NCBI RefSeq assembly: GCF_028416635.1
Contig: NZ_CP114013.1
Location: forward strand, 5,642,001 to 5,706,000
DNA from: Baekduia alba
Lineage (GTDB): Bacteria; Actinomycetota; Thermoleophilia; Solirubrobacterales; Solirubrobacteraceae
Length of the DNA: 64,000 nucleotides
Reading direction: 5' to 3'
This document shows positions 46,177-48,536 of this stretch, piece after piece. Every line of letters starts with the position of its first letter. Within the stretch, counting starts at the first letter, position 1. A program made the position numbers and the translations under genes. The notes under the pieces were generated by a model. The model had not been told where the DNA came from and did no database searches. It saw only the letters and a program-made list of their open reading frames with translations.

Positions 46177-47508
46177 ATGCCCCCTGTGAAGAAGAAGACG
46201 CTGTACGGCGGCGAGACCAAGAAGGCCGTCGAGAACTTCCCGATCTCCGGCGAGACGGTCCCGATCTCCGTCATCCGCTGGCTCGGCCGGATCAAGGGCA
46301 CCGCGGCCACGGTCAACGCGGAGCTCGGCAACCTCGACAAGAAGCTGGCGGCCGAGATCGCCGCGGCCGGCGCGGCGATCGCCGCGGGCGAGCACGACAA
46401 CCAGTTCCCGATCGATGTCTTCCAGACGGGGTCCGGGACGTCGTCGAACATGAACACCAACGAGGTCATCAGCGCGCTGACCGAAGGGCGCGCGCATCCC
46501 AATGACCATGTGAACTTCGGCCAGTCGTCCAACGACGTGTTCCCGAGCGCCGTGCACCTCGCCGCGCTGGACGAGGCCACCAACCAGCTGCTGCCGGCGC
46601 TCAAGCAGCTCGAGCGCTCGTTCGACCGCAAGGCGCGCAAGTTCAAGGACGTGGTCAAGTCCGGGCGCACGCACCTGATGGATGCGGTCCCGGTCACGCT
46701 GGGCGCCGAGTTCGCCGGCTACGCCGCGCAGATCCGGCTGGGCCAGGAGCGCATCGCGAGCGCGCTGGTGCACGTGGGCCAGATCCCGCTCGGCGGCACC
46801 GCGACCGGCACCGGGCTCAACACGCACCCGAAGTTCGCCGCCGAGGTCCGCAAGCGGCTGGCGCGCGAGAGCAAGTTGAAGCTCATCGCCCCGCCGGCGG
46901 ATCCGTTCGAGGCGCAGGCCAACCGCGACGCCCTGGTCGAGCTCAGCGGCGCGCTGAAGGTCGTCGCCGTGTCGCTGACCAAGATCGCGCAGGACATCGC
47001 GCTCATGGGCTCCGGCCCGCGCGCGGGCATCGGAGAGATCTTCCTGCCCGAGCTGCAGAAGGGCTCGTCGATCATGCCGGGCAAGGTCAACCCGGTCCTG
47101 CCCGAGGTCGTGCTGCAGGTCAGCGCGCAGGTGATCGGCAACGACACGGCGATCACCATCGGCGGCATGCAGGGCCAGTTCGAGCTCAACGTCCGCATCC
47201 CGCTGATCGCCCGCAACCTCCTGCAGTCGATCCACCTGCTCTCGACGACGACCGTCGCCTTCGCCGAGAAGTGCGTCGACGGCATCGAGGTCAACAAGGC
47301 CGGCACCAAGGCCTCGGCCGAGGGCACGCTCGCCGCCGCGACCGCGCTCAACGGCGCCATCGGCTACGACGCGGCCGCCGCGATCGTCAAGGAAGCATCC
47401 GCTTCCGGTCGCCCCCTGCGCGAGGTCGCGCTGGAGGCCGGCGTCGACGCGAAGCTCTACGACGAGACCATCAACCTCCGCAAGATCGCGGCGGGCAACC
47501 AGGCGTAG
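46177..47508 (+). CDS. fumC: Class II fumarate hydratase
   Basis: TCA cycle fumarate to malate. 443 residues of the fumarase/aspartase superfamily: FQTGSGTSSNMNTNEV, SGRTHLMDAVPVTLG (catalytic His), and the signature GSSIMPGKVNPVLPE with the catalytic Ser loop. Length and motifs fit FumC; aspartase is less likely. The ATG at 46177 follows TAGGCT by 8 nt. A long perfect hairpin starts 20 nt after the stop. Confidence 0.95.
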   Translation: MPPVKKKTLYGGETKKAVENFPISGETVPISVIRWLGRIKGTAATVNAELGNLDKKLAAEIAAAGAAIAAGEHDNQFPIDVFQTGSGTSSNMNTNEVISALTEGRAHPNDHVNFGQSSNDVFPSAVHLAALDEATNQLLPALKQLERSFDRKARKFKDVVKSGRTHLMDAVPVTLGAEFAGYAAQIRLGQERIASALVHVGQIPLGGTATGTGLNTHPKFAAEVRKRLARESKLKLIAPPADPFEAQANRDALVELSGALKVVAVSLTKIAQDIALMGSGPRAGIGEIFLPELQKGSSIMPGKVNPVLPEVVLQVSAQVIGNDTAITIGGMQGQFELNVRIPLIARNLLQSIHLLSTTTVAFAEKCVDGIEVNKAGTKASAEGTLAAATALNGAIGYDAAAAIVKEASASGRPLREVALEAGVDAKLYDETINLRKIAAGNQA

Positions 47509-47527
47509 TTGTAGGACTTGCGTTCCG

Positions 47528-47564
47528 TGTCGTCTGGTGTCCCGCATAGGGACACCAGACGACA
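47528..47564. repeat. Perfect 16-bp palindrome at the 3' end of the DUF559 gene
   Basis: Left arm begins TGTCGTCTGGTGTCCC (47528-47543), loop GCATA (47544-47548), exact reverse complement at 47549-47564. Not followed by T-residues on either strand. It lies between the fumC stop and the DUF559 stop, and closely resembles the palindrome at 48456-48498. Confidence 0.9.
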
Positions 47565-47568
47565 TGCG

Positions 47569-48477
47569 TCATCGGAGGAGGCGCAGGATGCGGTCGGCGA
47601 CCTCCCGCCTCTGGCGCGTCACCTGCTTGTAGGTGAACCGGACGACGGTGTGGCCGGCGAGCGTCAGCTGCTGATCGCGCTCGCGGTCACGCTCGAACGC
47701 CGAGGGCATCGAGTGATAGGTGTAGGAGTCGGCCTCGACGGCCAGGCGCTGGCGCGGCCAGTAGAAGTCGACGAGGACACCCTCGACGCGGGCGTTGACC
47801 GCAGGACGAGGGAGCCCGTGGTCGTCGCAGACTTGGAACAGCAGGATCTCGAGGACGCTACGGAGATCGGCTGCGTCGGTCCCCGCCAGCTCGTCCAGCA
47901 GCCGCCGCAGCGCTGGCGCACCATGTTGTCGCGGATGCTCGGCGAGGCACCGACGGACGGCGACGAGATCGAACAGGTCGAGGCGCAGAGACTGGGCGAT
48001 GACGTCCTCCATCGCCCGAGATCGCAGACGCGGCGAAAGGTCCAGGAGCGTCCGAGCCAGAGTGGTCGTCGGTATGCCGTCGATGAGCGTGCCTTCCCAG
48101 GCGCGGAAGGTCCCGACACGGTGGAGCCGAATCCGCGCCGGGTCGGGATCGCGTCCGGACGTTGACGGCCGGGTGACGTGGATCAACTGGCCGCGCGTCG
48201 CGGCGATGCCCCAGTGGGCGGCCGCGTCGCCATGGCTCAGCACCGCGCCCTCGCCCGACGCCCACACCGCGGCGAGCCACGCGCCCTCACGCCGCAGCAC
48301 GGCGTGCCCGACCGCGTAGACGCCGGGGTGACAGCGCAGCAGCCGACGGGCGCGCACCCGGCCGGCGATCTCCTTGGACGTGAGGCGTGCGTCGAGGAGC
48401 TGACGACGCGTGACGACCCCGAACTGATCCGCCGCGAGCGCGGCGATCACATGATCCGTGTCGGTTGGTGTCCCCAT
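47569..48477 (-). CDS. AbiEi-type N-terminal domain plus DUF559 (Vsr-like) nuclease protein
   Basis: 302 residues. N-terminal winged helix of the AbiEi antitoxin type (FGVVTRRQLLDARLTSKEIA, LLRCHPGVYAVGHAV). C-terminal DUF559 nuclease-like domain with GVLVDFYWPRQRLAVEADSY (D...E-x-D acidic set of a Vsr/PD-(D/E)xK fold) and GHTVVRFTYKQV. Start at 48477 lies in the loop of the upstream palindrome. Such genes are numerous and scattered in Actinobacteria. Flanking related palindromes suggest a mobile or homing unit (inference). No partner toxin gene is adjacent. Confidence 0.85.
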   Translation of the reverse strand: MGTPTDTDHVIAALAADQFGVVTRRQLLDARLTSKEIAGRVRARRLLRCHPGVYAVGHAVLRREGAWLAAVWASGEGAVLSHGDAAAHWGIAATRGQLIHVTRPSTSGRDPDPARIRLHRVGTFRAWEGTLIDGIPTTTLARTLLDLSPRLRSRAMEDVIAQSLRLDLFDLVAVRRCLAEHPRQHGAPALRRLLDELAGTDAADLRSVLEILLFQVCDDHGLPRPAVNARVEGVLVDFYWPRQRLAVEADSYTYHSMPSAFERDRERDQQLTLAGHTVVRFTYKQVTRQRREVADRILRLLR

Positions 48478-48498
48478 ATGGGACACGAGGCGACACGG
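48456..48498. repeat. Imperfect palindrome at the 5' end of the DUF559 gene
   Basis: Outer arms CCGTGTCG and CGACACGG (8 bp), inner arms GTGTCCC and GGGACAC (7 bp) around CATAT. The loop position equals that of the palindrome at 47528-47564, and the two copies align over about 42 bp with roughly 34 matches. The DUF559 ATG (48475-48477) is in the loop. Confidence 0.85.
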
Positions 48499-48536
48499 AC
48501 CGGAAACTCGCCCCCCGAAGCCTGGGCGCTGGTCCG

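Follow-up and report, generated by a model that had tools for sequence, protein, structure and literature searches.

In a 64,000-nucleotide (nt) stretch of the Baekduia alba genome (NZ_CP114013.1, positions 5,642,001 to 5,706,000; hereafter the window, numbered from its first letter), a gene beside fumC that is predicted to encode an AbiEi-like DNA-binding module fused to a DUF559 (Vsr/EDxHD-type) nuclease domain is bracketed by two related palindromes, one of which lies across its start codon. We observe an association between genes of this family and palindromes of their own, together with bracketing of the gene, dispersed copies within the same genome, sites that are empty in related species, co-divergence of gene-borne and dispersed palindromes in three species, and predicted catalytic residues that are intact. 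The most parsimonious interpretation is that every nuclease maintains a repeat of its own. On balance, we consider it probable that the system is a unit resembling REPtrons (genes bracketed by copies of a repetitive extragenic palindromic [REP] sequence) that is built on an unrelated nuclease, each paralogue recognizing and probably spreading its own palindrome; we infer binding, cutting, and mobility from the sequence patterns described below.

The nuclease gene and its flanking palindromes

The gene and its flanks comprise the following features, in window coordinates.

47569..48477, minus strand: AbiEi-DUF559 (Vsr/EDxHD-type) nuclease gene, 302 amino acids (aa), with its ATG inside the loop of the 5' palindrome
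47884..48462, minus strand: predicted AbiEi-antitoxin-like DNA-binding module, residues 5-197 (P0001 numbering), from VIA-align to 6y8q and PADLOC AbiEi
47572..47859, minus strand: predicted EDxHD/Vsr-type nuclease domain, residues 206-301, from VIA-align to 3r3p and 1cw0 and from invariant residues
48455..48499: 5' palindrome across the start codon, 17/20 pairs with a 5-nt loop (CATAT), a member of the dispersed family
47524..47568: 3' palindrome immediately past the stop codon, in the gap where fumC and the nuclease gene converge
48508..48515, minus strand: GGGGGCGA motif just 5' of the start-side palindrome, of the form GGGGGYGA found in 39/112 homologous genes

A sequence-only reading of this region had described a DUF559/AbiEi-type gene beside fumC, flanked by two palindromes alike at about 34 of 42 positions, with a perfect 16-bp stem on the 3' side and the start codon in the 5' loop. 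This description holds: the arms of the 3' palindrome, 47528-47543 and 47549-47564, form a perfect stem over 47528-47564, the loop of the 5' palindrome contains the in-frame ATG (48477-48475, minus strand), and the two palindromes are identical at 33/45 positions when compared as direct repeats and at 35/45 as inverted repeats. The fumC gene (46177-47508) is convergent to the minus-strand nuclease gene, which could alternatively start at a GTG at 48450. The exact arrangement GTGTCCC-N5-GGGACAC has no additional site within the window.

Start-codon palindromes across the gene family

Since a palindrome model built from the genome of the window (G000) also matched the 5' ends of other DUF559 genes, we surveyed the gene family in a sample of 112 AbiEi-DUF559 genes from about 40 Solirubrobacterales genomes. 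The best palindrome near the start has a mean score of 11.4 in these genes versus 6.8 in 2,294 other windows of the same loci, with 45/112 genes above the 99th percentile of this background. In 63/112 genes, where 2.7 would be expected, none of 40 dinucleotide shuffles of the start window reached the strength of the real palindrome (Mann-Whitney, P = 4e-50); the palindrome sequence is different in each gene. Windows past the stop codon show the same excess in weaker form (24/107, P = 1e-10). Furthermore, the 5' and 3' flanks of one gene resemble each other far beyond mismatched pairs (27/106 above the 99th percentile, P = 1e-8), mostly in inverted orientation.

With respect to their architecture, an in-frame ATG lies within 6 nt of the palindrome center in 33 of 74 strong start palindromes. 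When these 74 palindromes are aligned on their centers, pairing is good in two blocks, at 1-5 and at 12-24 nt from the loop, separated by a T-rich, mismatch-tolerant joint at 6-11 nt (28-43% mismatch versus 0-18% elsewhere); the block ends are partly determined by how the palindromes were delimited, and the middle joint is independent of that. In the 39 genes that have it, the GGGGGYGA motif lies about 41 nt 5' of the start; its background frequency is 0.007 per 100 nt. Outside the order, the excess of start palindromes was not significant among 24 genes (P = 0.14), six of which were above the 99th percentile. A striking case from outside Solirubrobacterales is L274, with matching 5' and 3' copies.

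Private dispersed copies

G000, which is assembled as one contig of 5.86 Mb, has about 18 places with palindromes of the family, of which 16 lie elsewhere than at the nuclease gene. Copy counts here and below come from sequence searches and are lower bounds, among the matches listed. When a single query that strung together 30 start palindromes of ten genomes, with AT-rich filler between them, was searched against 14 genomes, all of the roughly 150 listed matches, checked per query segment, fell in the palindrome's own genome, and 19/30 palindromes had copies beyond their own gene. The larger families include those of L163 (ten copies; G004), L176 (nine; G005), L153 and L110 (seven and five; G027), L107 (six; G016), and L036 (six; G036). 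Twelve further genes across the phylum, selected for a good palindrome and thus not a random sample, repeated the own-genome pattern, with dispersed copies for most (42 queries in total). Most of these palindromes have dispersed copies, often several, in families that are private to one genome. Whole units of 45-50 nt are conserved at up to 98%. In the G027 families the repeat does not reach past the palindrome and the flanks are unrelated, whereas in the L176 family some similarity extends past the palindrome.

Several copies have features of their own. Some G000 copies (L006, L007, L008, L012, L013, L015, L102, and L103) lie at the center of a repeat of about 300 bp that reaches well past the core and has inverted arms on its outside, TTCGGGGCCGAA...TTCGGCCCCGAA. 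In G116, the repeat of the nuclease gene (L282, L289) has more than 100 matches, many in tandem arrays with a 37-bp period that also occur on both sides of the gene. The G004 copies at L057, L073, L084, L085, and L086 have the core GGGCTCCATATTGGAGCCC, which matches no nuclease gene found in that incomplete assembly. The GTGTCTCATGCGGACAC sites (L018-L020) resembled copies of the G000 family and were set aside, as they belong to another small family like that near a RAYT-like (REP-associated tyrosine transposase-like) gene.

Placement, co-divergence, and empty sites

The dispersed copies lie predominantly between convergent genes (36/51, versus 2/29 gaps of the window; P = 2e-8) and are depleted between divergent genes (1/51 versus 7/29; P = 0.003); genes around the copies were called with a simple codon model whose training set was the window, and only the window's 29 gaps serve as the gap-type baseline. 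This is in line with REPs, which are likewise placed mostly between convergent or tandem genes (PMC3733652). Being intergenic between convergent genes and 3' of genes, the copies have a placement that is REP-like, not operator-like.

The fumC-linked orthologues of G000, G003, and G006 differ in their palindromes. Of 28 dispersed copies in these genomes, 27 are closest to the palindrome of their own gene, even though only G000 copies went into the search model. The sequence-only reading had named two findings that would speak against it, namely single palindrome copies beside unrelated genes and syntenic relatives that carry the gene with diverged flanks, and both are literally what we find. 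Since flanks and dispersed copies diverge together, the diverged flanks argue for recognition and not against it. The proposal that the palindromes are self-recognition sites is strongly supported as a family-wide genetic association, with binding by the protein itself a likely extension.

At four G000 copies (L005, L006, L009, and L102), the flanking gene pairs abut or nearly so in G001, G004, or G006, with projected spacers of -40 to 10 bp in these relatives versus 102-395 bp in G000. Conversely, the G004 copy L073 is missing at the corresponding place in G000. With the homing-endonuclease fold predicted for the protein, these empty sites in sister species make the earlier suggestion of a homing or transposon-like element plausible.

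The predicted protein

A domain search assigns the 302-aa protein to AbiEi_4 plus DUF559/MTES_1575; the AbiEi_4 match alone is slightly below its Pfam cutoff, and PADLOC AbiEi models match with an E value of 1.5e-21. An AlphaFold2 model built from 58 sequences has a mean predicted local distance difference test (pLDDT) score of 92.6. In comparisons of this predicted model by VIA-align, the AbiEi antitoxin 6y8q aligns with residues 5-197 (Z 13.2, 186 residues, 4.1 A), and for residues 206-301 the matches are the domain of the homing endonuclease I-Bth0305I (3r3p; Z 13.5, 92 residues, 2.3 A) and the mismatch-repair endonuclease Vsr (1cw0; Z 11.9). The predicted fold is thus that of an AbiEi antitoxin fused to a homing-endonuclease (EDxHD/Vsr) domain. 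Across 58 aligned homologues, E209, D236, E247, D249, and H254 are invariant and D263 is conserved in at least 90%; E209, D236, H254, and D263 stand in EDxHD order as read from the alignment, and the conserved residues are in keeping with an active EDxHD-type site. No AbiEii (DUF1814) toxin gene is found in the same operon, the neighbors being fumC and a family 2 glycosyl hydrolase gene. I-Bth0305I is reported to act as a dimer on a target of nearly 60 bp (PMC3943268), and promoter inverted repeats serve AbiEi antitoxins in repressing their own operons (PMC7319586). A protein that would sit on a start palindrome of about 45-50 bp is consistent with both.

History of the fumC locus

The nuclease gene is found at the same place beside fumC in G001, G003, G004, and G006, bracketed by palindromes in all four. 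As the gene and its palindromes are shared at fumC by five species of the genus, we reject a recent insertion of a cassette after fumC, if that is how the suggestion made from the sequence alone is to be read. In G002, the nuclease gene is missing: a single unrelated palindrome of 41 nt separates fumC from the glycosyl hydrolase gene, which makes this locus an empty site, by gain or by loss. The G002 palindrome is near-perfect (AGACCGCGGAAACACGGAACTGTTCCGTGTTTCTGCGGTCT; L299, from position 1799, just past fumC). In G003, contig C116 (with fumC) stops and contig C571 (with the nuclease gene) starts close to the fumC palindrome, a kind of break that repeats commonly produce in assemblies.

A proposed nuclease-maintained repeat, and alternative explanations

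In the mechanism that we propose, the AbiEi-like N-terminal part would bind its own palindrome of about 45-50 bp as a dimer on two half-sites, and binding at the copy that overlaps the start codon would probably repress the gene. The EDxHD/Vsr-type domain would nick or cut at cognate palindromes, and repair of the break may copy the palindrome to new, mostly intergenic sites, which would make the nuclease itself the spreader of the repeats. Because each paralogue would have its own palindrome specificity, one genome can hold several private families, and these families would change together with their nucleases.

Several observations weigh against this proposal. No dispersed copy was found among the matches listed for 11/30 start palindromes, and copy numbers are low (1-20), exceeding 100 in G116 only. 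In G004, whose assembly is 65% complete, no known nuclease gene matches the dispersed GGGCTCC family. Plasmid cargo was hardly ever seen (one record). The locus of the nuclease gene is old, so the gene itself hardly moves. The relatives are only about 80% identical, which makes exact junctions and target duplications unreadable, and at some of the empty sites loss in the relatives, rather than gain, is possible. Transposition, binding, and cleavage were not seen in the sequence analysis.

The low copy numbers, the old and syntenic gene, and the terminator-like position of palindromes between convergent genes would also suit a protein that recognizes palindromes without spreading them, the repeats having arisen by template switching or an unknown transposase and the nuclease having been recruited as a host factor for chromosome organization, transcription ends, or repeat surveillance. 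We regard this as unlikely, though it deserves serious attention; the occurrence of several private families per genome, each linked to one paralogue that it often brackets, is difficult to account for if the repeats do not depend on their own nucleases, and the predicted catalytic residues are invariant. An ordinary AbiEi-type autorepressor with its operator over the start codon, and with dispersed copies as operators of a regulon, is decidedly improbable. It would draw on the AbiEi fold of the N-terminal part and on the known repression by AbiEi antitoxins of their own operon through promoter inverted repeats (PMC7319586), whereas the copies avoid divergent promoter regions (1/51) and sit 3' of genes, conservation covers the whole 45-50-nt unit, and the same gene pairs lack the site in sister species. 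The gene context itself makes promoter operators of a regulon unlikely.

The position of the ATG close to the center of 33/74 strong palindromes could also point to control at the RNA level, with an mRNA hairpin hiding the start codon and the other copies acting as RNA hairpins or terminators. Mismatches in the gene sense, however, are more often A-C (87) than G-U (42), the opposite of what a selected sense-strand RNA hairpin would show, which makes such a hairpin unlikely; an Rfam search returned no family at E <= 1, and the private dispersed copies would be left unexplained, so that we consider RNA-level control very improbable. Pair counts in the G000 copies show no covariation beyond shuffles. 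A classical REP/RAYT system, in which the palindromes would be spread by an IS200-like transposase and the DUF559 genes would have no part in it, appears more improbable still: G000 does have one IS200-like Y1_Tnp gene with a GGTGTC...GACACC palindrome nearby, but Y1_Tnp is absent in 7/12 genomes with private families (G001, G003, G011, G016, G025, G027, and G036), unless genes were missed, and the repeats bracket DUF559 genes and not the Y1 gene. RAYT was accordingly rejected as the mobilizer, on the grounds of these private families in genomes without Y1_Tnp. Least credible of all is an artifact of chance or base composition, since the palindromes exceed both the shuffle and the background controls and their repeat matches are confined to their own genome, even though GC-rich DNA yields many short hairpins (background mean score, 6.8).

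Other elements in G000

The RAYT-like Y1 gene (L025:1264-1839, minus strand; G000:1466926-1467258) has a small palindrome of its own, GGTGTCTTCCGCGGACACC, downstream, and sites similar to it, GGTGTCTCATGCGGACACC, occur at L018-L020 and L022. At L016, to the right of the palindrome (G000 near 4661050), a block CACAGGGGGGCTC...GCTGAGAT...ACCCTTCGAACCTG is strongly conserved in G000, G003, and G006; it looks like a thiamine pyrophosphate (TPP) riboswitch and is a candidate for one.

Comparison with known systems and significance

REP palindromes are widespread, and to our knowledge their spread has been linked only to HUH transposases. The system described here shares with the REPtrons of REP/RAYT (TnpA-REP) (PMC2817692, PMC3733652, PMC8266576) short intergenic palindromes that lie mostly between convergent or tandem genes, a gene bracketed by copies of a palindrome dispersed in the genome, and an enzyme that co-evolves with its palindrome. 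It differs from them in having an AbiEi-EDxHD/Vsr nuclease in place of a Y1 HUH transposase and no common GTAG at the ends of the aligned copies, where REPtrons have a GTAG end tag, as well as in its own repeat per paralogue, with several private families per genome, and in a start codon that, in many genes, falls inside the 5' copy. A second class of REPs, tagged CGTC, was left without any enzyme in a 2013 survey (PMC3733652); these are likewise dispersed palindromes for which its authors found no dedicated transposase, whereas the repeats described here are without one common end tag.

Among nucleases, I-Bth0305I (3r3p; PMC3943268) has the closest solved domain, and its target of nearly 60 bp is similar in length to the palindromes. 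EDxHD homing genes interrupt their own target, whereas here a free-standing gene lies between two whole palindromes, with many sites per genome. The AbiEi antitoxins (6y8q; Rv2827c, 1zel; PMC7319586) share the predicted fold of residues 5-197, and the palindrome over the start is a possible counterpart of the inverted repeats used in AbiEi autorepression; AbiE differs in its partner toxin AbiEii, which is not adjacent here, and in the absence of the fused nuclease domain found in the present protein. Vsr (1cw0) and NGO0050 (3hrl) share the nuclease fold, to which, in contrast to the mismatch-repair enzyme Vsr, an antitoxin-like DNA-binding module and cognate palindromes are added here.

The literature searched, which consisted of open-licence papers only, contains nothing relevant on DUF559 with palindromes or transposition and no earlier report of private palindrome families of a fused AbiEi-EDxHD nuclease. 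Gene-plus-dispersed-palindrome systems (REPtrons), EDxHD homing enzymes, and AbiEi repressors are already known; their combination appears new, and we see an even chance that it constitutes a class of its own, that is, a new class of mobile repeats in which free-standing AbiEi-EDxHD nucleases would each recognize and multiply their own palindrome of about 50 bp within a single genome, with specificities that radiate across Actinobacteria without a transposase of any known kind.

A common actinobacterial "domain of unknown function" thereby gains a concrete partner in its own palindrome, and a role for DUF559/AbiEi becomes testable. The gene family also offers many natural pairs of a DNA-binding nuclease and a known long target, which are useful for studying the evolution of specificity. 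These results suggest a second, independent route by which genomes may acquire dispersed palindromes, and they point to an unrecognized kind of selfish or recognition element in many Actinobacteria.
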